Below are positions 8,670 through 25,179 of a stretch of DNA of 46,512 bases, one piece after another; position 1 is the first letter of the stretch; each line of letters starts with the position of its first letter. The stretch is from positions 1 to 46,512 of the forward strand of contig JALSSV010000066.1 in assembly GCA_026984045.1 (NCBI GenBank), given 5' to 3'. A model generated the notes under the pieces. The model ran no database searches. It was not told the DNA's origin and was given only the letters and a program-made list of their open reading frames with translations. The DNA comes from Chromatiales bacterium. GTDB taxonomy: Bacteria > Pseudomonadota > Gammaproteobacteria > UBA6429 > Thiohalophilaceae. The position numbers and the translations under genes were made by a program.

Positions 8670-8670
8670 G

Positions 8671-9483: not shown

Positions 9484-9495
9484 GTCAGCGCCTCG

Positions 9496-10503: not shown

Positions 10504-12849
10504 TCAGGGCGGATTGCTGCAGGTGCTGCGCATCCAGAAACGCCCGCCACAGTCCGACGAACTCCAGTTGCCGCTGTTTTTCCAGTTCACCGGCCCGCCG
10601 CCGCCGAGCATGGCTTCAAAATAGTAGGGGCCGTTGGTATAGGGTGCGCTGCCGCCTTCCTGGCTGATGTCCACCAGCAGGGCCTTGTTGCGCCAGCCAT
10701 GGGGCACCATGGCATGACACCAGGAACATTCCAGGTGGCCGATCCGCCGCGCATGGCCGATATGCAGGTTGGTGCTGCGGAAACTCAGGCCACACATGCC
10801 GCCGCCACCCCCGCCCCCGCCGAAACCGCCACCACTGAAGCCGCTCTTGTCCGGATTGGTATTGTTGGGGTTGGCATAGTCGTCGTAGTTGTGACACTTG
10901 AAGCACAGATCTCCCTGGCGGCCGGTGCCCGTCTCGTTGTCCCAGTTGCCCTTGAGCAGGAAGTTGTTGCCGGAGCCGTGGGGGCCCCAGGGCGCGCCGT
11001 CGGGCCCGCCGTTGGGCTCCACGGTGCCCGGCGCGGTGTCCGAGCCGTGACAGTCGGTGCAATACATGGTGAGGTTGCCGATGTAACTGCCTCCGCCGCC
11101 GTTCCAGGGCGAGAGGAACAGGTTGGCGCTGGCGCCGCCGCGGGCCGCGAGATCGCGACCGGTGTTGTCGAGCACCGGATGCCAGCTGCGATGGTTGCCA
11201 CCCGGTTCGCCCTTGTCAGCGGCCGGGGGCTGGAACTCCATGGCCTGGTTGGTGTAGCGCGTGACCTGGTTGGTGCCGGCCGGCGTGCCGCCGCCCGACT
11301 CGCCGAGAAACGGCGGGGTGTCGTAGGCGTAGTCCGAGTGGCACTTGAGACAGTACTGGTATTCGCGGGTCAGGTAGCGGCTGCTCACCGCGGTGGAGGC
11401 GCCGATGCCGCCATCGCCCCGCTTGACCTGGTAACCGCTGGGCAGGCTGCCCCAAGCAGTGGAACCATAGATGGGCTCGACGCCCCAGCCGCCGCGCAAC
11501 ACACCCGAGGCGAGGTTGCTGTGCTGTACCGCCGAATCGTGTTCATGGGTGCCCTCCGCGTTGCCGGCGGTGCCGTTGAACAACTGGTTCTTCATCAGCC
11601 GGTGGGGGTTGTGGCAGTCGGTGCACTCGGCGTGGCGGTTGGTCAGGTTGCCCTTGCCGAGGGTGACGGGGCTCTCGGTGAGATCGGCGTCACGGATGTC
11701 GTGGCGTTCCTCGCCGGCGGGCTGATCGGCATTGGTGATGGGCATGTGCCGGGCCAGCAGGAAATCGCTCTTGATGTCGGGCACCGGGAAGCCGCTGGTG
11801 CCCTGCCCCTGCAACACGCCGCCGTCGGGCGAATGGCACTGATAGCAGGTCTCCTCGATGGCCGGCAGGGCGGTGGTCTTGGGTACGGTGGTGCTGTCCA
11901 CACCCTCGCGCAGCAGACGCCGGGCACCGGGCACCGTGTGGGTGTCGTGACAGTTGAGGCAGGCGGCCTGCCAGACCGGGGTGCCGGCCGGAAAGTCGCG
12001 CCGGGTGGCGGCGGTATCGGTGTAGATCTCGTCGGCCACGGTCTGATCGGCGTGGGCCGAGTGCGACCAGGCCTGGCCCAGCTTGTCATGGCAGGCGAGA
12101 CAGACGATGTCGTTGGCCTGATCGAAATTCCCGCCGCCGGGGGCGGCCTTCTGGAAGCGATTCAGGCGCAGGAACTTGATGTTCAGGGTGGCATCGGTGT
12201 CGCGAATGTGCGGATCGTGGCAGCTCACACACTGCACCTGGTTGTTCTCCAGCGGCACCAGCGGGCGGGTGTTGGTGCCGGCCTGGCGGTTGGCGATGTG
12301 ACTCACCAGGGCCGGATCCCGCAATTCGCCGTCGGCGGAGGCCAGGGTGCTGTCGTAGGTGAAGGAGATGGGATGATCGTTGGTCAGATCGATGCCCAGG
12401 CGGCGGGTGAATCCGGTGTTGGCGCCGCTGCCTTCGGGCATGCTGCCATCGGCAGCGGTGCCCTGCAGATCGATGGTCACGTTCTGCTGGCCGTTGAGCA
12501 CGTTCACGGTGCCCAGCGCCAGGGTGCCGTCGTGACACGACAGGCACAGCTTGGAACTGCCGGCCGGCTGATCGAGGCCCAGGGCATCCATGGAGCTGGA
12601 GCGGTAGGTGCTGTAGGTGGCCCCGGACAACTGGCGGTTCCACAGGGGGGCCGCCGGCGCATTCTCGGCGTTGTGCGGGGTGTGGCAGAACACGCAGATC
12701 CGCGATTCGCTGAGCGCGGTCACCGGACCCGGCCCGGTATTGGAAAGGTTGTGGGGCGTGTTGGCAATATCGGGGATCCGCGCCGCCTGGCTGCTCCCGA
12801 TCATCAGCCACAGTCCCATCCCCCACAGGGTTCGACGCATGCCGCTCAC
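10504..12849 (-). CDS. Undecahaem (11 CxxCH) secreted c-type cytochrome
   Basis: A 781-residue protein with a signal peptide and 11 CxxCH motifs (CVFCH, CLSCH, CVSCH, CLACH, CLNCH, CYQCH, CTDCH, CLKCH, CTDCH, CFKCH, CSWCH). Several are of the doubled CxxCH type with PH after the motif (CHTPH, CHDPH, CHNPH). The first four haems and their spacing match the 4-haem protein at 21755-22603 closely (IANTxHNL, ICVFCHTPH, PLWNR, LCLSCHDGT). Between haems 10 and 11 is a run of glycines (GGGFGGGGGGGG). The last 16 residues hold two more cysteines outside haem motifs (DCGGRFWMRSTC), possibly a disulfide. The GTG start overlaps the upstream NHL gene as GTGA with GGAGGAGGG before it; an ATG three codons in is the alternative. 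It is a candidate terminal or outer-face cytochrome of the conduit. Confidence 0.9.
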   Translation of the reverse strand: MSGMRRTLWGMGLWLMIGSSQAARIPDIANTPHNLSNTGPGPVTALSESRICVFCHTPHNAENAPAAPLWNRQLSGATYSTYRSSSMDALGLDQPAGSSKLCLSCHDGTLALGTVNVLNGQQNVTIDLQGTAADGSMPEGSGANTGFTRRLGIDLTNDHPISFTYDSTLASADGELRDPALVSHIANRQAGTNTRPLVPLENNQVQCVSCHDPHIRDTDATLNIKFLRLNRFQKAAPGGGNFDQANDIVCLACHDKLGQAWSHSAHADQTVADEIYTDTAATRRDFPAGTPVWQAACLNCHDTHTVPGARRLLREGVDSTTVPKTTALPAIEETCYQCHSPDGGVLQGQGTSGFPVPDIKSDFLLARHMPITNADQPAGEERHDIRDADLTESPVTLGKGNLTNRHAECTDCHNPHRLMKNQLFNGTAGNAEGTHEHDSAVQHSNLASGVLRGGWGVEPIYGSTAWGSLPSGYQVKRGDGGIGASTAVSSRYLTREYQYCLKCHSDYAYDTPPFLGESGGGTPAGTNQVTRYTNQAMEFQPPAADKGEPGGNHRSWHPVLDNTGRDLAARGGASANLFLSPWNGGGGSYIGNLTMYCTDCHGSDTAPGTVEPNGGPDGAPWGPHGSGNNFLLKGNWDNETGTGRQGDLCFKCHNYDDYANPNNTNPDKSGFSGGGFGGGGGGGGMCGLSFRSTNLHIGHARRIGHLECSWCHAMVPHGWRNKALLVDISQEGGSAPYTNGPYYFEAMLGGGGPVNWKNSGNWSSSDCGGRFWMRSTCSNPP

Positions 12850-13925
12850 AGCCCTCCTCCCAGATACTGGAACACCGCCACCCGGCCATTGAACATGTCG
12901 GCCACGTAGATCCGGTTGTGCCCGTCCACCGCCACGCCGGCGGGGAGGAAGAACTGGCCGATGCCCGCGCCGGTGCCGCCGATGGGCAGCAGGAAGCGCC
13001 CCTGGTCGTCGAAGATCAGCAGGTGATCGCGATAGGACTCGACCACATAGAGGTTGCCCTCGTCATCCACCGCCACCCCCTTGGGGCGCTCGAAGTTGCC
13101 CACGTACAGGCCCCGCTGGCCGATGGAGCGCAACCAGCGTCCGTCACGGCCATCGAGGATCTGGATCCGCGCATTGAGGGTGTCGGTCACGTAGAGCCGC
13201 CCGCCGGCCACGCACAGGTAGGTGGGCGCATTGAACTGGCCCGGCTCGTCACCGGGCTGGCCCCAGTGATCGAGGAAACGGCCCGCGGCGTCGAAGATCA
13301 CGATCTGGTGACGGCGGGTGTCGGCGACGTAGATGTGACCACTGCGCGGATCCCGCGCGACGCCCGTGGGTCGCGCCAGTTCGGCCTGGCCGATCACGCC
13401 CCGGGGGCGTCCGTCTGCGGCCAGCCGGAACACGGCCCCCAGCTCCGCATCGGCCACCAGCACGCCCCCGTCGACGTCCGTGGCCACCCCGACGGGGGCC
13501 TTGAAGGAGGTGCCGGGACGCGCCTCGGACCAGACGGCCAGGCGCCCCCCCGCCGGATCGAACACCAGGATCGCCTTGCGGCTGATGTCGCTCACGTAGA
13601 TGCGGCCGGCGGCATCCACGGCGATGCCCTGGGGACGTTGCAGGCCGTCCGGCGCCTTGCCACCTTCGTCGAGACCGGCCAGCCAGCGCAGGGCCGAACC
13701 CAGGGCGCCGTGTTCTTCGTCGCGCCGGGCGAAGTTGTCCGCTCCGGTCAGCTCGCCGATCCAGCGGTAACGGGGCACTTCCGGCATCGCGGGCCAGGAC
13801 CGCTCCGGTGCCGGGCGCAGGAAGCGGAAGTCGCGGGCGACCGGCCGGTCGCTGCCGGGACCGGCACAGCCGGCCAGTTCCCCGACGAGGAAAACCAGCA
13901 GCAACCCGATCAGGCCCCGCGTCAT
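12846..13925 (-). CDS. NHL-repeat beta-propeller lipoprotein
   Basis: 359 residues with a lipoprotein signal (LVFLVGELAGCAG, lipobox LAGC). Six NHL repeats follow, for example RPQGIAVDAAGRIYVSDISR, RPTGVARDPRSGHIYVADTR, RPKGVAVDDEGNLYVVES and LPAGVAVDGHNRIYVADMFN. The ATG at 13925 overlaps the preceding NHL gene as ATGA, and its own stop overlaps the 11-haem gene as GTGA. NHL propellers are usually protein- or ligand-binding platforms. The strict coupling to a multihaem cytochrome suggests a scaffold or docking role at the membrane surface, which is inference. It is one of four NHL proteins in the cytochrome region, each beside a multihaem gene. Confidence 0.88.
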   Translation of the reverse strand: MTRGLIGLLLVFLVGELAGCAGPGSDRPVARDFRFLRPAPERSWPAMPEVPRYRWIGELTGADNFARRDEEHGALGSALRWLAGLDEGGKAPDGLQRPQGIAVDAAGRIYVSDISRKAILVFDPAGGRLAVWSEARPGTSFKAPVGVATDVDGGVLVADAELGAVFRLAADGRPRGVIGQAELARPTGVARDPRSGHIYVADTRRHQIVIFDAAGRFLDHWGQPGDEPGQFNAPTYLCVAGGRLYVTDTLNARIQILDGRDGRWLRSIGQRGLYVGNFERPKGVAVDDEGNLYVVESYRDHLLIFDDQGRFLLPIGGTGAGIGQFFLPAGVAVDGHNRIYVADMFNGRVAVFQYLGGGL

Positions 13926-14848
13926 GGTCCCACCTCCGCTGCCGGCACGATGCGCAGGAGGTGCACCGCGCCCAGGCCTTCGTCGGCGACGTACAGCCAC
14001 TGTCCCTGGACCGCCAGATCCCGGATCCGCAAGGCGTTCAGCTTCACGGAGCGAGCGCGTGGAGCCGTGGACCGATGGGCGGGGAAGCACCACAGTCGGT
14101 TGTCGAAGGCATCAGCGACGATGATGCGGCCTTGCGCATCCCGCCCCAGCGCGACCGGCTGGCGAAGGCGTGAGGCGCCGAAGCGGCTCACGAAGCGACC
14201 CTGCCGATCCACCACCAGCACTTCGCGGCGGGCCCCATCGAGCAGGTAGAAGTGTTCCGTGTCGGCAACCAGATCGATCAAACCGCCCGGGGGCTGGCCG
14301 GTTTCGTCGCGGGGATGGATGATCGCCTCCACCCGTCCCAGGCGGTTGAAGGCCAGGATCTGCTGGTCGGGCCCGTCCAGCACCAGCAGCCGTCCACCGC
14401 GGGGATCGTCAATCAGCGCCAGTGGCCGGTTGAGGTTGAAATCCCGGAAACGCTCGACCACCTGCCCCTGCGTGTCGAGCCGCAGCACCTGGCGCTGATC
14501 CGGATCCGTCACGTAGAGCTCACCCGCGGCATTGGCGAGCAGGCGCACGTCGGGCGACAGGGACATCGAGTAAAGGGAAACCAGCCGATCGGCTCCGCGA
14601 TCATAGCGGTAGAGGCGGCCGCGGCCGGCGTCGGCAATGAAGATCTGATCCTGCCAGCCGGCCACCGCCACCGGTCGCGCCAGTTGCACGAAACGGCCCT
14701 GCGCATCGGGCGCCGCCTGCAGCAGGCGCCACGGCTGCAACGGCGTGTCCTGCGCTTCGCCGCTGCGCGACGGCGCCGCCGTGCAGGCCGACAGGGCCAG
14801 GGACAGACCCGCGAGCGGCAACAGCAGGCTGGAAAGGATTCTTTTCAA
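13922..14848 (-). CDS. NHL-like beta-propeller lipoprotein
   Basis: A 308-residue lipoprotein (LAGLSLALSACTAAPS) with degenerate propeller repeats: RPVAVAGWQDQIFIADAGRG, NAAGELYVTDPDQRQVLRLD, RQPVALGRDAQGRIIVADAF and DLAVQGQWLYVADEG. I chose the TTG start at 14848, which has AGGGGAG eight bases upstream and gives a compact lipoprotein signal. A GTG at 14869 overlapping the triheme stop as GTGA is the alternative and would add seven residues. It is coupled to the next NHL lipoprotein. It follows the triheme/helical cassette and probably acts with it at a membrane surface; no catalytic residues are evident. Confidence 0.78.
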   Translation of the reverse strand: MKRILSSLLLPLAGLSLALSACTAAPSRSGEAQDTPLQPWRLLQAAPDAQGRFVQLARPVAVAGWQDQIFIADAGRGRLYRYDRGADRLVSLYSMSLSPDVRLLANAAGELYVTDPDQRQVLRLDTQGQVVERFRDFNLNRPLALIDDPRGGRLLVLDGPDQQILAFNRLGRVEAIIHPRDETGQPPGGLIDLVADTEHFYLLDGARREVLVVDRQGRFVSRFGASRLRQPVALGRDAQGRIIVADAFDNRLWCFPAHRSTAPRARSVKLNALRIRDLAVQGQWLYVADEGLGAVHLLRIVPAAEVGP

Positions 14849-14865
14849 GCGTATCGCTCCCCTGT

Positions 14866-15258
14866 TCACCAGATCCCCGGCCCCTTGGTGGAATGGCCGC
14901 CGCGAATGCCGCTCTTGAGGCCCGGTTTGCCCGAGTGGCACAAAAAACAGTTTTCCGTGCCCCAGGCGATGTCGTCATTGTGGCACATGCCGCAGAACTT
15001 GCCGTCGATGATCTCCTGCATGGTCACGTCGTTGCTGCCGGCGCGCATTTCGAAACCCAGCTCGAAGTGACACACCTTGCAGCGAAAGCGGATGCGATGA
15101 AACCAGTGCGGAAAGATCACCGGCGGCATGCCTTCGGCCTCGGCGCGCCGGTTCAGGATCACGTCGCCGTATTCCGCCCATGCCGGCAAGGCCGCCAGCC
15201 ACAGAACCAGAATCCGCGCCGCGACCGCGCCCCACTTTCCCCTTCTCATTGCGCTCAT
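14866..15258 (-). CDS. Small periplasmic triheme cytochrome c7-type (copy 2)
   Basis: A 130-residue protein with a signal peptide (cleavage near AWA-EYGD) and three CxxCH motifs: CKVCH, CGMCH and CFLCH. The block PPVIFPHWFHRIRFRCKVCH supplies two extra histidines (HWFH) as probable distal ligands, as in c(7)-type triheme domains. It is a clear paralogue of the protein at 18356-18769 (EYGDxxLN, EGMPPVIFPHWFHRIRFRCKVCH split over both, IIDGKxCGxCHN, CHSGKPGLK). Small trihemes such as PpcA shuttle electrons through the periplasm. It is the last gene of a six-gene cassette, 4 bases after the longer triheme gene. The GPGIW tail has no recognised role. Confidence 0.92.
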   Translation of the reverse strand: MSAMRRGKWGAVAARILVLWLAALPAWAEYGDVILNRRAEAEGMPPVIFPHWFHRIRFRCKVCHFELGFEMRAGSNDVTMQEIIDGKFCGMCHNDDIAWGTENCFLCHSGKPGLKSGIRGGHSTKGPGIW

Positions 15259-15262
15259 GCTG

Positions 15263-15787
15263 TCAGGGTCGTGCCTCTTTGCGCGGCACGCTGTGACAAC
15301 GGTTACATTCGGTCAGGGGAAAGGCCACGGCCCCATGACATCGGCCACAGTATTCCCCCTGCAGGATCTTGTACATGTTGATGGGATTGGCGCCCACCTT
15401 GGAGACGAAATACTTTTCATGGCAGTTGGCGCAATCCAGCCACAGGGTGTGCGGCCGGTGAGGGAACAGCACCATCGGCATCTCGCCCGTATTCTTCATC
15501 AGCACCGGGGTTTCCCGGATCCGTACCCTGGTTTCGGGCCGCAGGTTGGTACGGGGATGAATAACTCCCTCCTCCAGCGCCCTGACCCAGTTCACCTGGT
15601 TGCCGGACGTATCCGCTGGCAACCGGGAGAGGGCCTCGGCCGGTTCCTGCAACACGCCGATGGCCGGCCCTTCCGGATCGTGCAGGTTGTCCTGCGCCAG
15701 GGGCACCCAGTAGCCGGCCAACGCCGCTCCGACGAACAGCAGGCCGGCCAGGCCGCTGCCGAGCAACTGCCACTTTCGTCTCATCAT
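15263..15787 (-). CDS. Longer N-anchored triheme cytochrome (copy 2)
   Basis: 174 residues. An N-terminal hydrophobic segment (about 8-25, GSGLAGLLFVGAALAGYWV) may be an uncleaved anchor. The three haem sites CANCH, CGRCH and CNRCH lie in the C-terminal half, preceded by VLFPHRPHTLWLDCANCH with candidate distal histidines. The region between anchor and haems (HDPEG..VNWVRALEEGVIHPR) is conserved with the protein at 17687-18328 (YHDPEG..VDWVRSLESGKITPR) and contains no haem motif. The ATG at 15787 has GGGGAG nine bases upstream. It could dock at the membrane or barrel and pass electrons to the small triheme made from the next gene; this role is inferred. Confidence 0.88.
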   Translation of the reverse strand: MMRRKWQLLGSGLAGLLFVGAALAGYWVPLAQDNLHDPEGPAIGVLQEPAEALSRLPADTSGNQVNWVRALEEGVIHPRTNLRPETRVRIRETPVLMKNTGEMPMVLFPHRPHTLWLDCANCHEKYFVSKVGANPINMYKILQGEYCGRCHGAVAFPLTECNRCHSVPRKEARP

Positions 15788-15806
15788 CCGCGCTTTTCTC
15801 CCCGAC

Positions 15807-16688
15807 CTAGCCCGGAATGTAGAAGCCGGCATTGCGGATCGCCCGCACGTACTGTTTCGTGGACTCCTCGCAACGGGTCACGGCGGCGGCATAGTCGCCC
15901 TGCTCGGCCAACTGCTCGGCCTCGGCGCGCAGACGCTTCGCCGCTTTCAGATATTTCTCCACCCGCTTGCGAATCCGCGGATTCTGCAACTTCTCCTCCA
16001 GCAGCATCTGCACCAGCATCTTGTGGGTATCGTTGCGATCCAGTTCATAGAGATATTCGTCACGCTTGGTTTCGAAGTGCAGGGAGCGTACCAGGGTATC
16101 GCCACTGCGCAGGGCACTGATCGCCGTCTTGATCTGCACATAGGCCGTATCCAGCGTCTTGCGGGCCGAATAGGGCTGATCGGTCTCCATCTGGGCCCTG
16201 GCCGTGGCGATGGCGGTCTCGGTGGCCCCACGCACTTCACGCACCAGATCCTCCCGGCCTTTCTCCTTGCCAATCCGCTCCAGGGCGGCCATCAGCGCTT
16301 CGACGCTCTCGAGACGGGCATCCACGCCCCGCGCCGCTTCGTCCTGTGCAGCACGCGCACCCTCCATGCGGGTCAGCCGCACGGCCCGGAACATGGTTTC
16401 GGTGGCATAGAACAGGGCCTCGCCGGCCGCATCCCGATCCTCCTCGTCCAGGGCCTTGACCGCGCGTTCGTAGAGTTCCCGCGCGGCCCGGTACAGGGTC
16501 TGCACGTTGGGATCCGTGCTGGCCCTGACCCGCCGTGCGGCCGACGACACCGTGAGCAACTGTTCGACGAAATGCAGACGATCCGCGGTGGCCGGGTTGA
16601 TGGGCTTGCCATCGGCCGACTGCAGGGCCGGCAAGGGCGAGGAAGCGAACAGCATCGCGGCCAGGCTCCATTTTCTGAGATGTTTCAT
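15807..16688 (-). CDS. Secreted all-helical repeat protein of unknown family (copy 2)
   Basis: A 293-residue protein with a signal peptide (MKHLRKWSLAAMLFASS) and no cysteine in the mature part, so no haem. The mature chain is rich in A, R, E and L with heptad-like helices, for example ARELYERAVKALDEEDRDAA and YLKAAKRLRAEAEQLAEQGD. The last two segments look like TPR-like hairpins (EQGDYAAAVTRCEESTKQYV). It is a distant paralogue of the protein at 16721-17620; shared features are the RRVRA/RRIEA segment, KRDEYLYELDRN versus PADEYRYEYDRN, and the closing helix pair. I do not recognise the family. Its place between triheme genes suggests a periplasmic spacer or scaffold for cytochromes. The start is supported by AGGAG seven bases upstream. 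Confidence 0.8.
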   Translation of the reverse strand: MKHLRKWSLAAMLFASSPLPALQSADGKPINPATADRLHFVEQLLTVSSAARRVRASTDPNVQTLYRAARELYERAVKALDEEDRDAAGEALFYATETMFRAVRLTRMEGARAAQDEAARGVDARLESVEALMAALERIGKEKGREDLVREVRGATETAIATARAQMETDQPYSARKTLDTAYVQIKTAISALRSGDTLVRSLHFETKRDEYLYELDRNDTHKMLVQMLLEEKLQNPRIRKRVEKYLKAAKRLRAEAEQLAEQGDYAAAVTRCEESTKQYVRAIRNAGFYIPG

Positions 16689-16720
16689 GATTTCGCTCCT
16701 GATGAAATGGGGTTGAAGGC

Positions 16721-17620
16721 TCACAACGCCAGGCCGCCCATGCGCAAGGCCTGCACGATGGTCTTGTTGGCCTGTTCGATGGCCACCAGCGCCTGTGCCA
16801 TGTCACCGGCCTGCTTCAGTTTCTCGGCCCGGGCCACCTGTTGCTCGCTTTTGGCGATCAACCGCTTGATCAGCGGGATGCGCCGGCGCATCTCGGCCGG
16901 GGCGGTGTTCAACAGCACCTGCGCCAGTGAGACGTAACTTCGGTTGCGATCGTATTCGTAGCGGTATTCGTCCGCGGGCGTCTTGAACTCCAGGGCGTAG
17001 GTCACCGTCTCCCGGGCCCGTGCCCGACTCAGGGCAGACTCGACTCGCGCCGAAGCCCGGCTCAGGATCCGCAGGGCGGCGGTATAGTCTCCTTTTTCAG
17101 CGTGTCCCTGCGCTTCGTGCAGCAACGCCTCTACCCGTGCCTGATCCAGCAGCTTGTCCAGCGGCAGACCCTTGCGGCGCGCCGTATCCGACAGGGCCTT
17201 TTCATAGACCCGGATGTTCTCCAGCGACTCCCGGTAGCGTTCCCGGGCCTGGGCATTGAGCCCCTGCGTGTCGACGATCAGGGCGAAGGCCCGGGTCACG
17301 TTGTCGAGACTCACCCGGGAGGCCTGGCGAGCCGGTTCCAGATCGCCACTGTCGAACAGGGTGCGCGCCTGCTGGTAGGCGTTCTTGGCATCCTCCAGCA
17401 GTGCGATGGCGCGGCGATTGCCGCCGGCCTCGATGCGCCGGGCCCGTTTCGAGTGATACAGGATCTGCTCGAGCATGCGCAGCTTGCTCTCCAGCACCCG
17501 GCGTTCCCGCGAGCCATCGCCATCCGCCGCCGCACTGGCGTCCTGACCGGCGAGTGCAATCAGCATCAATCCGCACAGAATGCACCACAGACCGCGATGC
17601 GCATGTCGGCTGTAGCTCAT
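16721..17620 (-). CDS. Secreted all-helical repeat protein of unknown family (copy 1)
   Basis: A 299-residue protein with a signal peptide (ending near ASAAADG) and a helical, Arg/Ala/Glu-rich mature chain. Recognisable segments are HSKRARRIEAGGNRRAIALL, AEKGDYTAALRILSRASARV, PADEYRYEYDRNRSYV and AGDMAQALVAIEQANKTIV. It is paralogous to the next gene downstream (15807-16688). The two sit side by side at the centre of the mirrored cassette. No haem motif or enzyme signature is seen. I start it at the second of two adjacent ATGs because GGAGG then stands five bases away; the first ATG at 17623 is possible. The function is unknown; a structural partner of the trihemes is the simplest reading of the context. 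Confidence 0.8.
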   Translation of the reverse strand: MSYSRHAHRGLWCILCGLMLIALAGQDASAAADGDGSRERRVLESKLRMLEQILYHSKRARRIEAGGNRRAIALLEDAKNAYQQARTLFDSGDLEPARQASRVSLDNVTRAFALIVDTQGLNAQARERYRESLENIRVYEKALSDTARRKGLPLDKLLDQARVEALLHEAQGHAEKGDYTAALRILSRASARVESALSRARARETVTYALEFKTPADEYRYEYDRNRSYVSLAQVLLNTAPAEMRRRIPLIKRLIAKSEQQVARAEKLKQAGDMAQALVAIEQANKTIVQALRMGGLAL

Positions 17621-17660
17621 CATCACCTCCAACCGCCTGTTCGGCGGACAGACCTCCATC

Positions 17661-17686
17661 CCGCTCCCGGCGCCTGCCGGGAGCGG
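17661..17686 (-). other. Strong intercistronic stem-loop (11-bp stem)
   Basis: CCGCTCCCGGC, a four-base loop, and GCCGGGAGCGG form a perfect hairpin directly after the stop of the longer triheme gene. No T run follows, so it is unlikely to end transcription. It may protect the 3' end of the upstream cytochrome message and set different amounts of trihemes and helical proteins. Confidence 0.6.
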
Positions 17687-18328
17687 CTATTTCTTGCTGG
17701 CCGCCTTCTTGGCCTTGGCCTTCTTGCCCTTGCGGCCCTTGGGCCGGGAATGGCACTTGCGGCAGGTCTTGGCCGTGATCGGAAATGCGACCTTGCCATG
17801 ACAGACGCCGCACTTCTGTCCCATCAGGATGGCCGCCATGCTGATCTGGTTGGCGCCCTTCTGGGGGATGAAGATGGCCGGGTGACAATTGGAGCAGTCC
17901 AGCCATTCGGTGTGCTGCTTGTGGGGATACGCCACGTCCGGCATGGACCCCTTCACCTCGCGCACGATGTTCAGATCCATGACGATGGGCTTGGCCTTGG
18001 GGTCCAGCCGATCGTACCGGGGCGTGATCTTGCCGCTCTCGAGGGATCTGACCCAGTCCACGTGGTTGCCCACCTTCGCCGGCACCAGATCCTTGAAGGC
18101 CTCCTTCGGCGGCTGCAGATAGGCCACTCCCTCCCCTTCAGGGTCGTGATAGCCGTCCTTGGCCGGCGGCAGGTTGAAGGGCTTCTTCGGCTTGAGCAGC
18201 CGGTTGAACACGTTGGGATTCTTCCGTTCGGCGGCGCCGGCCTGGTGCACGACGCCGAACACCAGCAGCAGGGCGGCCACGATGAACAGCAAAACGATGA
18301 ATTTCAGGGATGGCATCTGGACATTCAT
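17687..18328 (-). CDS. Longer N-anchored triheme cytochrome with basic tail (copy 1)
   Basis: 213 residues. An N-terminal hydrophobic segment (about 8-27, LKFIVLLFIVAALLLVFGVV) is a signal or anchor. Three CxxCH motifs (CSNCH, CGVCH, CRKCH) lie in the C-terminal half, preceded by VAYPHKQHTEWLDCSNCH. It is the paralogue of the protein at 15263-15787 over the whole length. It differs by a lysine-rich tail of about 18 residues (KGRKGKKAKAKKAASKK) that the other copy lacks. That tail could bind an acidic partner, nucleic acid or the membrane. The RBS GGAG stands eight bases before the ATG. It is followed by the strong stem-loop and then the helical protein gene. Confidence 0.9.
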   Translation of the reverse strand: MNVQMPSLKFIVLLFIVAALLLVFGVVHQAGAAERKNPNVFNRLLKPKKPFNLPPAKDGYHDPEGEGVAYLQPPKEAFKDLVPAKVGNHVDWVRSLESGKITPRYDRLDPKAKPIVMDLNIVREVKGSMPDVAYPHKQHTEWLDCSNCHPAIFIPQKGANQISMAAILMGQKCGVCHGKVAFPITAKTCRKCHSRPKGRKGKKAKAKKAASKK

Positions 18329-18355
18329 TTCAGTTTCTCCATTCGCTGCCGGGCA

Positions 18356-18769
18356 TCAGGGCTTGCTGGCCGCCCGGGGCGGCGCAAGGGTTCCCAGACG
18401 ACTGCCGATGACCTGGGTCTTCAACCCCGGCTTTCCGGAATGACAGATGTTGCAGTTCTCCACCGACCAGGCGATCTCGCCATTGTGGCAGGCACCACAA
18501 TACTTGCCGTCGATGATCTTGAGCATGTTGATGCCGCTGCCGCCGGCCTTGAACTGGAAGCCCAGATCCGCATGGCAGACCTTGCAGCGGAAGCGGATGC
18601 GATGGAACCAGTGGGGGAAAATCACCGGCGGCATGCCTTCCTTTTCCGCATGTTCGTTGAGCACCAGGTCTCCGTACTCGGCCCGGGCCGGCGGGCTGGC
18701 CAGCCCCCAGACCGTCAGCAGCATCACCAGCAGACCGCTCAGGCCCGTCTTGCGTATCGCGTGGTTCAT
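18356..18769 (-). CDS. Small periplasmic triheme cytochrome c7-type (copy 1)
   Basis: A 137-residue protein with a signal peptide (cleavage near ARA-EYGD) and three CxxCH motifs: CKVCH, CGACH and CNICH. The block FPHWFHRIRFRCKVCH is identical to that of the paralogue at 14866-15258. The start is the ATG at 18769 with GGAGG four bases upstream; a longer frame to 18808 is not needed. It follows the outer-membrane barrel gene and opens the six-gene cassette. Its role as periplasmic electron shuttle to or from the barrel-cytochrome complex is inferred from family (PpcA-like trihemes) and order. Confidence 0.92.
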   Translation of the reverse strand: MNHAIRKTGLSGLLVMLLTVWGLASPPARAEYGDLVLNEHAEKEGMPPVIFPHWFHRIRFRCKVCHADLGFQFKAGGSGINMLKIIDGKYCGACHNGEIAWSVENCNICHSGKPGLKTQVIGSRLGTLAPPRAASKP

Positions 18770-18807
18770 GTTTCCTCCATCTTGTTTTCCTGCAGCCGAA
18801 AGCTGCA

Positions 18808-20553
18808 TCAGTTGCCGAAATAGCGCCGCGCCTGGAACATCAGCACGTTGTACCGGTTGCGGTTGATCTCCGACATGCGCAGACTCAGGCGCAGGCTGAG
18901 GCGCCCCAGGACATAGTCGAATCGGTTGACCCAGACCGTGCTCTCCTGTTTCTGGGCAAACACGTTGCCGGGGGTCTCCAGCTGATTGCTGATACGCAGA
19001 TCCGAATGGAACTGCAGCCGGTAGACGCTGAAGGCCCGGATATGGCGATACACCAGGGAACCGCTGGCGGTCGTCGCAAAGCCGTCGTCGGCGCTGTCGG
19101 CCGTGACGTTCTTGTTGGCGTTGATGGTCAGGTTGCCCGTCAGGGCCGACCAGGGCCCGAAGGAGTAGGTCCCGTTCAACTGGTAGTTGATCAACTGATA
19201 GATTTCCCGCGGTCCGTCACCACCCACGGTGCGGGCGTCGGAGGCCAGCAGGCGCATGTAGGCCTGCCCCAGCCCCTTGCCCTTGCGCCAGGTAAAGGAA
19301 ACGCTGTGGCTGAGCCGGTTGCGGGCGGCCAGGCGCGTGTCGTAATCGCCATTCAGGCTCTGCGCGATCTGAAAGGAGAATTCCTCGCGCGGGCGCAGGG
19401 TGATGGCCCGCTGCAGATTGTGGCCGAGGGTGAGGTTGAGATGCTGGCCACCGTATTGGTCCTCGATACGATTGGTGATTCCCGATGCGCCATACCACCG
19501 GTAACGATAGCGGCCCAGCGGGATGTCGGCCGGATTGTAGGCGAGCGAGACCGACTGGGTGGATACGCGGATCTGCTCGCCATTGGTGTGCACGATCTTG
19601 GCTGTCAGGTTGCCCCGCAATCGCAGGTAGGGCGTCAGGTTGTAATTGAGGCCACCATAGGCATTCAGCGAATCACTGTCGGTGGGTGCCCCGACCGACT
19701 CCCTGTAGCTCGTGAAATAGCGCAGGCCGAGGTTCCCGTTCAGTTTCGGATTGGCGGGCCGCCAGAAGGAATTGGAGGTCATCTGGACCTGGCGGGTGAG
19801 ATTGGCATAGGCGCTCACCCGGTCGTCCAGCTCGAGGTAGCTGAGCATGTTTTCCATGCTGAAGGCGCCGCTGGGGCGGTAGGTGTGTCGCAGCACCGCA
19901 TTGTCGTTCCGGTAGTTGCTTTGGCTGGAACGCCGCCGGGCTTTCTCGCGCCGGGCATCGAACTTGAGCCGGTGGCGCCGGAAACTCTGGCCAGCCATGA
20001 AGGTGAGGATGTCGCTCACGTCATCGGCCTGCCCCTGCATGGTCTGGATGTTCTTGTCCCAAGTGCCCTGCATGACGAACGATCCTTCCGGGCTGCGGTA
20101 TTTCTGACTGATTCCGTAACGGGTATTGGTATAGGGCAACGAGCCGATCGCCTCTCCCGTGACCCGGCTGTCGGTTCGCAGGTACCGGGCCTCGAAGGGA
20201 AACCGACTCAGGGGCAGAAAGCGCAACTGGGCATCGCCGGTCACGATGTCACCGGTCGAGGTGCCCGTGGTCTCCCGTTGCAGGTGATCGAAAGTCAGCC
20301 CCAGCCCGCCATTGACCTGCATGAACCAGGGCTGCCAGAGGTAACTGTCTCCTCGCAGATTCAGGGTCAACAGATTCTCCCACTGATCTTCGCCTTCGCG
20401 ATAATCCTCGAGCCGGCTCTGGTAGGTGACGTCACCCCAGAACCGGATCGGGGCCATGACATACTCTCCCCGCACCGCGGTGGACAGCACGGCCAGCAGT
20501 CCGGCAGCAATGACACGCTGTTCCCAACCCTTGCCCCTTCCGCAATACCCCAT
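18808..20553 (-). CDS. Outer-membrane beta-barrel, putative conduit porin
   Basis: A 581-residue protein with a signal peptide (ending near VRG-EY) and a chain of alternating short amphipathic strands typical of a large barrel, such as FMQVNGGLGLTFDHL, LNAYGGLNYNLTPYLRLRGN, LNLTLGHNLQRAITLRPREE and SLRLSLRMSEINRNRYNV. It ends in an aromatic-rich strand (LMFQARRYFGN), close to the usual C-terminal barrel signal. No cysteine pair like that near the MtrB N-terminus is seen. The size and context (parvulin chaperone before it, multihaem cytochromes around it) suggest an MtrB/PioB/OmbB-like sheath that lets a cytochrome cross the outer membrane. Direct homology to those families is not evident by eye. 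A short TGCAGC stem-loop follows its stop. Confidence 0.8.
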   Translation of the reverse strand: MGYCGRGKGWEQRVIAAGLLAVLSTAVRGEYVMAPIRFWGDVTYQSRLEDYREGEDQWENLLTLNLRGDSYLWQPWFMQVNGGLGLTFDHLQRETTGTSTGDIVTGDAQLRFLPLSRFPFEARYLRTDSRVTGEAIGSLPYTNTRYGISQKYRSPEGSFVMQGTWDKNIQTMQGQADDVSDILTFMAGQSFRRHRLKFDARREKARRRSSQSNYRNDNAVLRHTYRPSGAFSMENMLSYLELDDRVSAYANLTRQVQMTSNSFWRPANPKLNGNLGLRYFTSYRESVGAPTDSDSLNAYGGLNYNLTPYLRLRGNLTAKIVHTNGEQIRVSTQSVSLAYNPADIPLGRYRYRWYGASGITNRIEDQYGGQHLNLTLGHNLQRAITLRPREEFSFQIAQSLNGDYDTRLAARNRLSHSVSFTWRKGKGLGQAYMRLLASDARTVGGDGPREIYQLINYQLNGTYSFGPWSALTGNLTINANKNVTADSADDGFATTASGSLVYRHIRAFSVYRLQFHSDLRISNQLETPGNVFAQKQESTVWVNRFDYVLGRLSLRLSLRMSEINRNRYNVLMFQARRYFGN

Positions 20554-20580: not shown

Positions 20581-21618
20581 TCACGGTTCGTGCGTGGTCC
20601 CGGGCGTCCCTTCCGTGTGTCCGCCTGCCGCCGGGTCATAGCGGCGGTTCACCTGAATGGCCGTCTTCTTCCACAATTGCGCCTCCAAGGCCGCGATCCG
20701 CTGCTGTCGCGCTTCCCGCAGGTAGAGTTCCCGGGCCCGGGCCTCCACCTTCGCGTAGGGATGGCGTCGCGGCGGCTTGCGATCCAGCAGCCGGAAGATG
20801 GCCACCCCCTGCAACAGGCGCAGTGGCGGGGTCAGCTCCCCCGGCTGTAGCGTGTCCAGCGCCTTCTGCACCGGCGGCGCCAGCATTCCGCGATGCAGAT
20901 AGCCCATGTCCCCGCCCTGCTCGGCGCTGTCGTCTGCCGAATGCAGGCGTGCCAGCTCGGCAAAATCGGCACCCGCTTCGAGCTGCCGGTGAATGCGCCG
21001 GCCTTCTTCCATCGCCTGCTCCCACACGGCGGGAGTCGAGGAAGGCGCCACGCGCAACAGGATCACCGCCACGCGCAACTGTTCGGGGGAGGTGAATTTG
21101 TCCGGGTGATCCGCGTAATACTTGCGAATCTCTGCATCTTCAGGATCGGGCACCCTGGCGAGATCCTTCTTGAGCTGGATCAGGATGCTCTGATTTTCCA
21201 GAAAGCGGCGCAGGCGCCGCGCCAGCCTTGCCTGGAACGCCGGCCAGTCCTCCCGTTCGCCATAGCGCTTGCGATAGTCCTCGAGCATGGCTTCGAGGGT
21301 CTTTGCGACCCGCTCGGCCTCGGGGCGATATCCGCGTCGCCGTGCCTCCTGCACCAGCAACACCTTCCGGATCAGGGCCTGCGCCGCGTCCTGGCGGATC
21401 CGGGCCTGTTCGCCTTGCGGAATCTTGCCGTGATAGAAGCGGTTGCGAACGTAGTTGTGAAAGAACTGCTTGAATTCTTCCGCGCTGATGGTGTCTTCCC
21501 CCACTCGGGCGAACACGGCCTGCGGCAGATCTGTGACCATGAGCGCCGCCGGCAACGGTGACGCGATCAGCCACAACAGGCCCAGCCCCATTGCCCGTCT
21601 GATGGACATCCTCCTCAC
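20581..21618 (-). CDS. Periplasmic parvulin-type peptidyl-prolyl isomerase
   Basis: A 345-residue protein with signal peptide, an N-terminal helical chaperone region like SurA/PrsA (about 25-170) and one parvulin domain: LRVAVILLRV, FAELARLHSADDSAEQGGDMGYL, LAPPVQKALDTLQPGELTPP and GVAIFRLLDRK. I chose the GTG at 21618, which has AGGAGG five bases upstream. An ATG at 21609 has the same AGGAGG directly against it, too close to be used. It lies 27 bases before the barrel gene. SurA-like isomerases assist outer-membrane barrel folding, so a dedicated chaperone for the neighbouring barrel is likely. It stands 32 bases downstream of an intrinsic terminator. Confidence 0.9.
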   Translation of the reverse strand: MRRMSIRRAMGLGLLWLIASPLPAALMVTDLPQAVFARVGEDTISAEEFKQFFHNYVRNRFYHGKIPQGEQARIRQDAAQALIRKVLLVQEARRRGYRPEAERVAKTLEAMLEDYRKRYGEREDWPAFQARLARRLRRFLENQSILIQLKKDLARVPDPEDAEIRKYYADHPDKFTSPEQLRVAVILLRVAPSSTPAVWEQAMEEGRRIHRQLEAGADFAELARLHSADDSAEQGGDMGYLHRGMLAPPVQKALDTLQPGELTPPLRLLQGVAIFRLLDRKPPRRHPYAKVEARARELYLREARQQRIAALEAQLWKKTAIQVNRRYDPAAGGHTEGTPGTTHEP

Positions 21619-21649
21619 TCGCACCTCCTGCTGCGGCAAACTGCACGCG

Positions 21650-21754: not shown

Positions 21755-22603
21755 TTATTTCGTATGGCAGGCCAGACAGACTGCACTGCCGGTGTTCTGG
21801 ATGCGCAGGAATGTCGGGTTCACGTCCGTATGCGGGTTGTGGCAACTGGCACATTCGACGAACGGCTCCGTCGCTCCCAGGTCGGCCCGGGTGTAGAGCT
21901 GCATGTCGGTCTTCTCCCGCAAGCCCGTGGTGCCGACGCTGGTGTCCACCCACCACACGGGGTTGCCATTGATGGTGGCCTTGTAGGGCGGAACGAAATC
22001 CGGATCGGCCAGGGTGCCGCCGAAGGGGCCGTCGGCATCGGCCGAGGTGGCGCCGCCACCCCCGTACTGGATGCCGACGGGATGATCGTTGCTCAGATCG
22101 GTACCGATGTTGACGATGCTGGCCGTGGCATAGTTGAGGGAGCCCACCGGCGTGGCCGTGGCGGCCGGACCGGTCCAGGTGCCAGGCAGGGTGGCGCCCG
22201 CCGGGTTGTAATTGCCCGAACCCGGGGCGTTGATCATCACGTTCATGGCCTGGGTGCCGTCATGGCAGGAGAGGCAGGCGATGGACACGGAGCCCACCGG
22301 CGCCACGCCGCCGTCCAGCGTGGAGGTCCCCAGCGAGGCATAGGTGGTGTAGGTGGCCGGATCCGAGAGCACCCGGTTCCACAGCGGCACGGAGGCCGAG
22401 TTGTCCGCCCCGTGCGGCGTGTGGCAGAACACGCAGATGGCTTCGGTGCCATCGAACGAGTTGGTGCCGGTGCCGGTGCTGCCCAGGTTGTGCTTGGTAT
22501 TGGCGATGGCGCCCATGGCGGTCTGCGCCGTGAGCAGGCCGGTGGCGGCCAGCACCCCGAACAGGCCGCGCCTCAGCCAGGTGTTGCCGATCTTGCGTGT
22601 CAT
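21755..22603 (-). CDS. Secreted tetrahaem cytochrome, homologue of the 11-haem N-terminus
   Basis: A 282-residue protein with a signal peptide (ending near AMG-AIANTKHNL) and four CxxCH motifs: CVFCH, CLSCH, CASCH and CLACH. It matches the first ~280 residues of the 11-haem protein at 10504-12849, including IANTxHNL, ICVFCHTPH, VPLWNR/APLWNR, CLSCHDGT, LSNDHP/LTNDHP and the closing VCLACH. It ends three residues after the fourth haem. The ATG at 22603 has GGAGG ahead. It stands alone between a promoter-like element and a terminator, so it may be made in greater amount than the genes below. A soluble or surface wire component is inferred. Confidence 0.9.
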   Translation of the reverse strand: MTRKIGNTWLRRGLFGVLAATGLLTAQTAMGAIANTKHNLGSTGTGTNSFDGTEAICVFCHTPHGADNSASVPLWNRVLSDPATYTTYASLGTSTLDGGVAPVGSVSIACLSCHDGTQAMNVMINAPGSGNYNPAGATLPGTWTGPAATATPVGSLNYATASIVNIGTDLSNDHPVGIQYGGGGATSADADGPFGGTLADPDFVPPYKATINGNPVWWVDTSVGTTGLREKTDMQLYTRADLGATEPFVECASCHNPHTDVNPTFLRIQNTGSAVCLACHTK

Positions 22604-22660
22604 GGAAGAACCCTCCGCAGGCATTTTTATGAATCGAACAGCATTCTTTGATTCCTGCAC

Positions 22661-22806: not shown

Positions 22807-25179
22807 TCAGGGGCGGGCGCGACCGGACTTCGGTTCGAGATCCTCGTAAAGGGGATGCGGCTTGCGTGAAGGCGGCCAGTGGAAGTACTTGTAGCGGAAC
22901 AGCGAATCCAGGCCGTGACAGTCGCTGCACAGGAAGCCCTCGGTGGTGGCGTGGCGCAGGAAGCTGTCGAGCACCGTGCCCTCGTGGCGGCGGCCGTCGC
23001 CGGCTTCGGCCCGCGCCGGGTTCCAGCGATGGGGATCGTGGCAGGTGGGGCAGGTGATCCGACCCACCGGCACCCGCTTCCCGTCGACGGTGTACACGGG
23101 CGGATTGAGATTCTGCTTGCGCAGGCCCACCCGCCGGCCGGCATTGGACGGCACCCGTCGCGGCGGGTGATGCAGTTTCTCCGGCACTTTCTTCCCGGCC
23201 AGTCCCTCCTGCCGGTGGCAACTGCGACAGAGCGACTCGAGCACATCCCTGCCGGGCCCCGGCGTTCGCGCCCAGAGACGGACACCGGCCAGTGGCGTGT
23301 GCGGCGTATGGCACTGGCCGCACACGCCGCTAGCGGCGATCGGTTGCTGCTTGCCGTTGCGGGCCCGGGGCGCCGTGATCCGCAGATCGTGCTCGGTGCC
23401 GAACACCAGCGCCTTGTCGGCATGGCAGCGCACGCACAGCGGAGACTCGCCGGCCGCGGCCACCCGCAGGAAACTGTTGCGGCCATCGCCTTCCACATCG
23501 GGATCGGCACCGGCCCGGCTGCCGGGATGCGTTGCCTCCCAGACGTGGGGATCGTGGCAGGTGGCACAATCCACTTCGCTGCCTTGCGGATTACGCCCGC
23601 CCTGGCGGGTGAACAGCGGCAGGCGCGGGCGGATCGTCTCCGGCAACCGATCCAGCCCCACATGGACGGGATGGCTGTGCTTGCCGGTCTGCTTCTTCGC
23701 CGCCGGCAGCCCCTCGGCATGGCAACTGGTGCACAGGCCCTCGATGCCCGCGCCCCGCCCCGGCGGGCGGGCCCACATGCGCGGGCCGCGGCCGTTGTGG
23801 GGCAGGTGGCAGGCGCTGCAGATGCCGGCTTCGGTCACCGTCTGGCCCATGACGTTGCGGGTCCTGGTGGCGGTGATCGCCAGGTTGTGCTTGCTGAAGG
23901 TCACCGCCGGCTTGTCCCGGTGACAGTTGCTGCACAGGCGATTGCGACCATCATGAGGCAGGCGCAGGAAACTGTTGCGCCCGTGACCCTCGAGCTTGCG
24001 CGGATCGGCCTTCGCCGGCATCGGTTGCCCGCCCGGCGGTGCCCAGCGGTGAGGGTCGTGACAGGTGACGCAGGTGACCCGGCCGTCGCGCCGGGCATGA
24101 TTGCCCCGCCGGTCGATCAGGGGCAGGGGCACGGGCGCCGCCAGACCGGCGAGGCGTTCGATCCGGCTGCGCCAGCGCCCCAATTCGGCCCGGATCCCCA
24201 CCCGTGTGATCGACACGTCCACGGGATGGGACTGGCGGCCGATGGTCTTGTCGTGGGCCGGACCCTGCGCGTCGTGGCAACTGCGGCAGAGGGAGGAAAT
24301 CATGTCCATCCCCGTCGGCCGCGGACGGGCCCAGAGGCGGGGACCGGTGGCCTTGTGGGGCACGTGGCAGGCGCTGCACACGCCGGCATGGGCGGCGGTC
24401 TCGTTGCGCACGTTGGGGGCGTTTATGCCCATGGCGCCCATGTCGTGCCGGGTGCCCCGGATGCGCTTCTTGTCGTCGTGGCAGGTGGTGCACAGGCGGC
24501 TGCCCGCAAGGGGCAGCACCAGCAGCTTCTTCTGCCGGCTGCCGTGCACGCGATGGCAGGATTGGCAAATCACCCCGCCCTTGTTGCCCAGTTGCCCGCC
24601 GGCCGCCAGCAGGGCCTCCGGGGGATGCGGTGGCCGGCTGTGCAGCGGATGGTTGCCACTCACCGGCCCTTTTGCCCGATTGGTGTGGCAGAGCACGCAC
24701 AGCCCCGAGTTGATGTTCTCGGCGCGCAGGAAGATGGGCGACTCCTTGTTGTCCCACTCCACCCCGTGAGCCGAGTGGCAGGTGCCGCAGTAGATCTTGC
24801 CGTCATCGTTGAGCGGCAATACCTCCTTGCCCTCCACCAGGGGAACGTGCACGTCCGGCGAGGGCTTGACCCCGACCGGATGCAGGTGCTTGCGCTCGGC
24901 CCAGACGAAACGGGAATCGAGCACGAAGCCGTCGTGACAGGAGAAGCACATGCGCTCGGTGCTCACCACGTCCTGACGCCCGGTTTCCACCACCGGCCGG
25001 GGCTCGTAGGGCACCAGGGTCTTGACACCCTTCCGCTTGAAATCGGTGAGCCACATGATGTGGCAGATGGAACACTCGCGCTTGGGCGAAGGCTGGCGGG
25101 CCTGCAACGGCTGGCCCGGCCAGAGTGCGCCCAGCAGCCAGAAGGCGAGCAGCACCATTGCCGGACGGGCGCGCCTCAT
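22807..25179 (-). CDS. 18-haem secreted cytochrome built from tandem tetrahaem units
   Basis: A 790-residue protein with a signal peptide (ending near LQARQ) and 18 CxxCH motifs. Much of the chain is a unit of about 160 residues repeated: (I/V)-x-C-x-x-CHDPHxW, then NSFLR, then LCxxCHxDK, then GxCxxCHxPHxxxGxRxWAR, then LCxSCH, then a His-rich linker (SHPV). Hemes 9-12 and 13-16 are the clearest copies; 5-8 is a diverged copy and 17-18 a half unit. No membrane anchor or lipobox is seen. The ATG overlaps the upstream NHL gene as ATGA. A long haem chain like this could span tens of angstroms of periplasm or extend outside the cell; location is inferred. Confidence 0.93.
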   Translation of the reverse strand: MRRARPAMVLLAFWLLGALWPGQPLQARQPSPKRECSICHIMWLTDFKRKGVKTLVPYEPRPVVETGRQDVVSTERMCFSCHDGFVLDSRFVWAERKHLHPVGVKPSPDVHVPLVEGKEVLPLNDDGKIYCGTCHSAHGVEWDNKESPIFLRAENINSGLCVLCHTNRAKGPVSGNHPLHSRPPHPPEALLAAGGQLGNKGGVICQSCHRVHGSRQKKLLVLPLAGSRLCTTCHDDKKRIRGTRHDMGAMGINAPNVRNETAAHAGVCSACHVPHKATGPRLWARPRPTGMDMISSLCRSCHDAQGPAHDKTIGRQSHPVDVSITRVGIRAELGRWRSRIERLAGLAAPVPLPLIDRRGNHARRDGRVTCVTCHDPHRWAPPGGQPMPAKADPRKLEGHGRNSFLRLPHDGRNRLCSNCHRDKPAVTFSKHNLAITATRTRNVMGQTVTEAGICSACHLPHNGRGPRMWARPPGRGAGIEGLCTSCHAEGLPAAKKQTGKHSHPVHVGLDRLPETIRPRLPLFTRQGGRNPQGSEVDCATCHDPHVWEATHPGSRAGADPDVEGDGRNSFLRVAAAGESPLCVRCHADKALVFGTEHDLRITAPRARNGKQQPIAASGVCGQCHTPHTPLAGVRLWARTPGPGRDVLESLCRSCHRQEGLAGKKVPEKLHHPPRRVPSNAGRRVGLRKQNLNPPVYTVDGKRVPVGRITCPTCHDPHRWNPARAEAGDGRRHEGTVLDSFLRHATTEGFLCSDCHGLDSLFRYKYFHWPPSRKPHPLYEDLEPKSGRARP

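Follow-up and report, generated by a model that had tools for sequence, protein, structure and literature searches.

A mirrored set of triheme cytochrome and helical protein genes looks like the doubled middle section of a Uet-type operon

Results

Six genes on one strand form three nested pairs

We analyzed a 46,512-nucleotide stretch of DNA from a Chromatiales bacterium (GenBank assembly GCA_026984045.1, contig JALSSV010000066.1, positions 1 to 46,512), referred to as the window herein. Six adjacent genes on its minus strand encode, in the order of transcription, a triheme cytochrome (A), a longer triheme cytochrome (B), two helical proteins (C and C′), and a second long and a second short triheme cytochrome (B′ and A′). 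An earlier sequence-only reading had described this order, A-B-C-C′-B′-A′, as a mirror on a single strand, and our check of the open reading frames (ORFs) bore out the positions and the shared strand of all six. The true end of A lies at 18808; the 18769 given earlier is the ATG of residue 14. The genes are listed below, with places named after the undecaheme electron transfer (Uet) operon, to which we return.

18356..18808, minus strand: A, triheme c7 cytochrome, predicted to be exported; 3 CxxCH motifs; TIGR04257 63.7 bits; Pfam Cytochrome_C7; UetD-like place
17687..18328, minus strand: B, triheme c7 cytochrome with an N-terminal extension; 3 CxxCH; TIGR04257 61.9 bits; UetE-like place
16721..17659, minus strand: C, helical protein without heme, signal-like N-terminus; 0 CxxCH; homologue of C′; UetF-like place
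15807..16724, minus strand: C′, second helical protein, all helical in the AlphaFold2 model; 0 CxxCH; old paralogue of C
15263..15832, minus strand: B′, triheme c7 cytochrome with an N-terminal extension; 3 CxxCH; TIGR04257 61.4 bits; UetG-like place
14866..15258, minus strand: A′, short triheme c7 cytochrome; 3 CxxCH; TIGR04257 62.3 bits; one clade in trees

Pairwise blastp among the six proteins confirmed the paralogy that had been noted for the outer pairs, with 60% identity over 119 residues for A/A′ (E 5e-56) and 46% over 147 residues for B/B′ (E 3e-46). C and C′ had been proposed as a weaker pair; they are weaker, yet homologous (28% identity over 319 residues, E 1e-19). Together with a search of the whole genome using C alone, which returned C′ at E 1.2e-19, and the 72-row tree described below, this rules out that C and C′ are unrelated. 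The A- and B-type proteins have one c7 domain in common (E 8e-10 to 4e-17 in the same comparison), so that all four triheme proteins are paralogues. All four score 61.4-63.7 bits against TIGR04257 (nanowire_3heme; cut-off 40) and 42.7-55.1 bits against Pfam Cytochrome_C7 (cut-off 24.8), and no Pfam family was found above cut-off in C. At the thresholds used, the genome holds no further copies of either kind: there are four A-family profile matches, all in the window, and two C-type genes in total. Intergenic distances within the six genes range from 27 to -26 bases, and the 26-base overlap of C′ and B′ vanishes if, as the sequence can be read, B′ starts at Met16.

The mirrored order recurs in other lineages

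We compiled 151 loci from three sources: a pattern scan for relatives of A (the best 80 of 472 confirmed stretches, a set biased toward the relatives closest to A), an even draw of the class (369 genomes, 44 with a C-type match), and eight regions from close relatives plus the window. This total is reached after nine near-duplicates were dropped (L025-L028, L048, L091, L095, L096, and L098) and includes three loci around weak C hits (L173-L175) that carry no labelled gene. Labels were assigned according to similarity with the genes of the window rather than by position, and genes were ordered by stop codon; the trees below bear out these labels.

The six-gene mirror was found in 32 of the 151 loci, the five-gene order A-B-C-B′-A′ in 27, and A-B-C-B′ in 33, each count including one locus at a contig end. 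For the last order, 31 loci are joined by two (L115 and L138) whose fourth gene, a B by label, was set to B′ by hand; in the 130-row tree it groups with B′. Genomes with a single A-B-C block, whose existence the sequence-only reading had left open, do exist: A-B-C was found in 13 loci, although only six of these are stand-alone (L106, L112, L126, L127, L155, and L166, with L126 adjoining other multiheme genes). Four others are split regions of the Aromatoleum type (L057, L065, L066, and L074; a fifth, L052, was counted with its opposite-strand C), one (L041) comes after a tetraheme gene, a peptidyl-prolyl isomerase (PPIase) gene, and an unlabelled gene and is itself followed by nothing, and two (L063 and L169) belong to operons at or near a contig end. 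Other orders were a lone C (27 loci), A-B-C-C (4, of which 3 at a contig end), A-B-B′-A′ (2), separate B′-A′ (5), and fragments. None of the 151 loci has the tandem order A-B-C-A′-B′-C′, and none has a stand-alone C′-B′-A′ block. Where adjacent, A and B are always ordered A-B and B′ and A′ always B′-A′. In L082, A′-B′ lies on the opposite strand. An apparent A′ before B′ in L029, L069, and L070 (in L070 also C before B) was an artefact of over-long ORF starts and was gone after sorting by stop codon.

The 44 genomes of the even draw comprise 30 with A-B-C-B′, five with the six-gene mirror (the window's included), one with a mirror cut after A-B-C-C′, one divided between contigs, two with only stand-alone A-B-C, three with only a lone C, and two with none of the genes labelled. 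Four genomes (G100, G137, G335, and G352) carry A-B-C-B′ plus a stand-alone A-B-C elsewhere. In a phylum-wide draw of 398 genomes, 24 had relatives of C′, which often lay side by side in pairs; 20 of the 24 genomes lie outside the class. The six-gene order spans Betaproteobacteria, Gammaproteobacteria, and Magnetococcales. Among named strains, it is present in Ramlibacter, Herbaspirillum, Sphaerotilus, and Sedimenticola strains, and Dechloromonas hankyongensis has the five-gene order.

This conservation of order exceeds chance, the same six-gene order being found in 32 of 151 loci and ABCABC in 0. By itself, the mirror argues only weakly for selection, since three pairs filling six adjacent slots can be arranged in 15 patterns, a single one of them nested. 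The usual conservation of a long-standing operon order is a sufficient explanation. An inverted duplication is ruled out because all six genes of the mirrored loci lie on the same strand. The sequence-only reading had reasoned that such an order needs several steps or selection for order; the need for several steps finds support, and selection is neither supported nor contradicted.

We also observed several variants of these loci and proteins. In Aromatoleum and Azoarcus (L052, L065, L066, and L074, and partly L057 and L075), the region reads barrel, B′, A′, NHL, NHL, ResB, CcsA, and then A, B, and C; the other strand carries an additional C, and no undecaheme gene was labelled within the sequence stretches covered. 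The short-form C protein is long, with open frames of 442-579 residues in the even draw. In L022, the extra N-terminal part of C (8209-9549) matches the At5g54830-like domain PF25489 (E 8e-7) and appears cupredoxin-like by eye. Four C-family proteins from outside the class (G424:C119, G443:C208, G447:C14, and G459:C43) show several consecutive matches to profile positions ∼110-205 and are extended repeat versions. B of many Betaproteobacteria (L030, L033, L036, and others) has a fourth CxxCH motif in open frames of ∼300-500 residues. L024 (G016), from the window's family, has A-B-C and then, on the opposite strand, a second C, with no other labelled operon genes within the 19,990 bases covered. 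Lastly, L092, on a contig titled Planctomycetota, holds the NHL, tetraheme, PPIase, barrel, and A genes of the operon, which may reflect mis-binning or transfer.

Each pair is consistent with one old split

Trees of the three families across genomes, the check that had been suggested for the mirror, are consistent with one old split for each pair. A FastTree took in all 409 triheme proteins, and the other trees sampled 109 of 189 A/A′, 127 of 220 B/B′, and 107 or 72 of 185 C sequences; the trees had either no root or one set on a long branch. In the FastTree, A′ forms one clade (support 99), and A plus A′ are set apart from B plus B′ (support 100). A′ again forms one clade in the 112-row tree (100/99), and in the 130-row tree a branch with support 100 sets B off, with B′ apart from it. 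For the helical proteins, 72 rows divide into a C′ side (22 second C and 12 single C of the five-gene form) and a C side (22 first C and 16 of A-B-C-B′) with support 98. Betaproteobacteria, Gammaproteobacteria, and Magnetococcales are all represented both in the A′ clade and on the C′ side. A placement of A′ beside A of the window's family (82/87 in the 112-row tree) was weak and left unused. Median tree distances between paralogues, set against those between orthologues (2.96 versus 1.31 and 1.94 for A/A′; 3.55 versus 0.95 and 1.78 for B/B′), failed to date the duplications.

The sequence-only reading had held that a relative with plain ABCABC order would signal a recent local rearrangement in the window's lineage. 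No such relative is found among the 151 loci, and beyond the odd order itself nothing favors a recent event. The same order in Betaproteobacteria, other Gammaproteobacteria, and Magnetococcales, with all three groups represented in both the A′ clade and the C′ side, refutes it, and we regard a recent rearrangement as practically excluded.

The mirror could also derive from one duplication of a whole block into two modules, ABC and C′B′A′, that were later brought into mirrored order. The three pairs do stand together in the mirrored loci, B′-A′ and A-B-C lie apart within one region in Aromatoleum and Azoarcus (L052, L065, L066, and L074), L082 has A′-B′ on the opposite strand, and such an event could be hidden by losses. 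However, the stand-alone and short forms disfavor a whole-block copy. The 107-row C tree, with lone and other genes added, places 10 of the 12 C of A-B-C loci in the C′ clade with modest support, including all five stand-alone C sampled (of six), so that stand-alone A-B-C combines genes of the A and B types with a C′-type C; a stand-alone C′-B′-A′ is absent; and B′ occurs without A′ or C′ in the 33 short-form loci. Two mirrored copies of an ABC block are thus not borne out, and a block duplication appears unlikely. Since stand-alone A-B-C has a C′-type C and the short form a B′ without A′, serial gain or loss around the center is favored over a mirrored block copy. As read from the sequences, one old duplication per pair, with the copies staying in place, fits these patterns, and parts of the operon seem to be gained or lost singly.

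The six genes lie in the middle of a Uet-like operon

We found that the six genes are not a self-contained cassette, as the sequence-only reading had it, but the middle of a larger conserved operon. Its minus-strand order is tetraheme, PPIase, barrel, A-B-C-C′-B′-A′, NHL, NHL, undecaheme, ResB, and CcsA, and the A-B-C-C′-B′-A′ and A-B-C-B′ sets of relatives sit inside the same shell. The neighboring genes are as follows.

22807..25179, minus strand: 18-heme cytochrome; 18 CxxCH; adjoins the tetraheme gene
21755..22660, minus strand: tetraheme cytochrome; 4 CxxCH; Pfam Paired_CXXCH_1; UetA-like place
20581..21639, minus strand: PpiC/SurA-type PPIase; Pfam Rotamase 58.2 bits; UetB-like place
18808..20553, minus strand: predicted outer-membrane beta-barrel protein; 28 predicted strands; PDB barrel matches; UetC-like place
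13922..14941, minus strand: NHL-repeat protein; Pfam NHL 35.6 bits; UetH-like place
12846..14093, minus strand: NHL-repeat protein; Pfam NHL in 6 stretches, 120.1 bits; UetI-like place
10504..12849, minus strand: undecaheme cytochrome; 11 CxxCH; Paired_CXXCH_1; UetJ-like place
9496..10497, minus strand: ResB-like cytochrome c maturation protein; Pfam ResB 52.2 bits
8671..9483, minus strand: CcsA-like cytochrome c assembly protein; Pfam Cytochrom_C_asm 93.1 bits

This operon looks like Uet, an already described pathway, as far as gene content and order can tell. Literature statements on Uet given here refer to the passages of each source that were covered. Uet stands for undecaheme electron transfer; the pathway belongs to Ca. 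Tenderia electrophaga and has been reported in six Gallionella as well. Its complex comprises the tetraheme UetA, the isomerase UetB, the barrel UetC, the trihemes UetDEG, the NHL proteins UetHI, and the undecaheme UetJ (PMC10734462). In Tenderia, which takes electrons from a cathode, the trihemes are encoded by Tel_16515, 16520, and 16530 and rank among the top-expressed genes at the cathode, Tel_16545 encodes the undecaheme protein, and Tel_16525 is a cotranscribed tetratricopeptide repeat (TPR) gene whose product, the authors suggest, possibly aligns cytochromes in a bridge (PMC5371394). By locus number, the middle section of Tenderia is therefore triheme-triheme-TPR-triheme, that is, A-B-C-B′, and the numbering suggests that Tel_16525 is UetF.

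The series tetraheme, PPIase, barrel, triheme, triheme, triheme, NHL, NHL, and undecaheme is common to the window and Tenderia, with helical proteins in the window where Tenderia has the TPR protein. The undecaheme, the tetraheme, the PPIase, two NHL proteins, and, by prediction, the barrel are all present in the window. The three Uet trihemes correspond to A, B, and B′, presumably periplasmic, and the place of Tel_16525 is held by C and C′; C′ is predicted to be helical, and Pfam shows no TPR in either. Compared with Uet, the window adds the fourth triheme A′, the second helical protein C′, and the upstream 18-heme cytochrome. ResB and CcsA genes follow in the window and in most annotated A-B-C-B′ operons and are not mentioned in the Uet passages. 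Neither a mirrored order nor a second helical gene is mentioned in the Uet literature examined, a coverage outside of which the original naming paper (Eddie 2022) lies. The window thus looks like a fuller variant of the named pathway with its periplasmic section doubled. Undecaheme cytochromes are mentioned for a manganese-reducing Dechloromonas too (PMC13264449); together with cathode uptake by Tenderia, this means that the direction of electron flow is not readable from the genes.

A different multiheme system, such as one assembling extracellular cytochrome filaments of the OmcS/OmcE kind, might share the PPIase and NHL parts, and PPIases, NHL proteins, and cytochromes with doubled CXXCH motifs are said to be found alongside other systems of extracellular cytochromes. 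However, the tetraheme, barrel, triheme, helical, paired NHL, and undecaheme genes follow the Uet order throughout, which makes a filament system quite improbable.

Among annotated loci, an 18-heme gene beside the tetraheme gene was found only in the window's own family (L018, L019, and L023; cut in L017). By eye, the 18-heme protein (22807-25179) apparently has internal repeats. Upstream of the window's operon, the 18-heme gene, NHL proteins, and further 8-, 7-, and 3-heme cytochromes recur in L018 and L019.

Predicted structures and related systems

An AlphaFold2 model of the barrel protein has 28 strands of at least 12 residues (mean pLDDT 89.9, pTM 0.68), and its PDB matches are outer-membrane barrels, including MtrB (6r2q_B). 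These matches are unspecific, with 50 rows within Z 14.0-16.1, and indicate a barrel rather than a conduit. No Pfam family, the MtrB/PioB family included, matched the protein (18808-20553) at E up to 1. MtrCAB and MtoAB likewise combine an outer-membrane barrel with multiheme cytochromes, and MtrB is one of the many barrel matches; the window differs in a barrel without a Pfam hit, in eleven- and four-heme cytochromes in place of decahemes, and in a separate triheme relay.

The C′ model (mean pLDDT 88.6, pTM 0.49) consists of helices only, except for single residues in its low-confidence start. At an E-value limit of 0.001, Foldseek returned no match for it. The matches found by VIA-align were short helical bundles, the best with Z 11.0 and a root mean square deviation of 2.8 over 81 residues, scores in a range that the tool flags as common among helical models.

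For the triheme proteins, the best solved relative is PDB 3ov0, a Geobacter 12-heme protein of four tandem c7 domains, which we take to be GSU1996. The A-family profile aligns to each of its four domains; the window has four separate one-domain proteins in place of one fused chain. The c7 domains of 3ov0, aligned with this profile, have a Met between heme motifs 1 and 2, as do 407 of the 409 trihemes (the remaining two did not fit the search pattern), and in 362 of the 407 this Met lies 9 residues before the second motif. It is presumably the sixth ligand of one heme, as in the c7 family, which would give one higher-potential heme per protein. The passages covered of PMC11520253 and PMC4519760 give nothing on the four-domain protein beyond a reference.

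Discussion

Taken together, the homology within each pair, the recurrence of the order, the trees, and the surrounding genes suggest, with a probability of about 0.77, that the six genes make up the periplasmic relay part of a Uet-type operon, here at its most complete, and that the mirror is an old operon order. Several points weigh against this. The periplasmic location is suggested by N-termini that look signal-like by eye. The match to Uet is one of heme counts, protein families, and gene order. Within the class, the even draw yielded more short forms than mirrors (30 versus 5). In the 107-row C tree, SH-aLRT support falls to 77-90, and 9 of the 22 first C lie in the half of the C′ clade, though outside the clade itself. 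With trees that have no root or one on a long branch, gain and loss look alike, and A-B-C-B′ may be ancestral or reduced; horizontal transfer could also mimic antiquity. For C′, neither Foldseek nor VIA-align gave a specific fold match, and Pfam shows TPR in neither C nor C′.

It is conceivable that the order was selected and that operon neighbors are neighbors in a symmetric complex. A-B-C and C′-B′-A′ would then be the facing halves of a quasi-symmetric wire of 12 hemes, with C and C′ as scaffold, running from the outer to the inner membrane. The A-B and B′-A′ orders are kept wherever the genes are adjacent, and C and C′ belong to one family; against this, some operons have a single C, lack A′, or are divided into two parts, and a nested order has a chance of 1 in 15. 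We consider selection for such a complex doubtful, and the physical wire a long shot likewise. If true, it would be the split equivalent of the fused Geobacter twelve-heme protein.

Under the Uet-type reading, the operon likely encodes a heme relay in the periplasm, present in double and placed behind a conduit through the outer membrane. This conduit would be built from the wide barrel together with the tetraheme and undecaheme cytochromes. Electron transfer through the periplasm, between the conduit and the inner membrane and in either direction, would fall to the four triheme c7 proteins. C and C′ may hold or align the trihemes, and ResB/CcsA and the PPIase would serve maturation. Each pair would stem from one old duplication whose copies kept their places, with single members lost or added per lineage to give A-B-C-B′, A-B-C-B′-A′, A-B-B′-A′, and stand-alone A-B-C.

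On this reading, an odd gene order is tied to a named electron-transfer pathway, and a fuller version of Uet, comprising four trihemes plus one or two helical proteins, would be present in Betaproteobacteria, Gammaproteobacteria, and Magnetococcales. The named strains among the records may serve as hosts for testing how electrons are carried across the periplasm. Should the helical proteins act as scaffolds, one could then test whether periplasmic electron transfer is ordered or diffusive.

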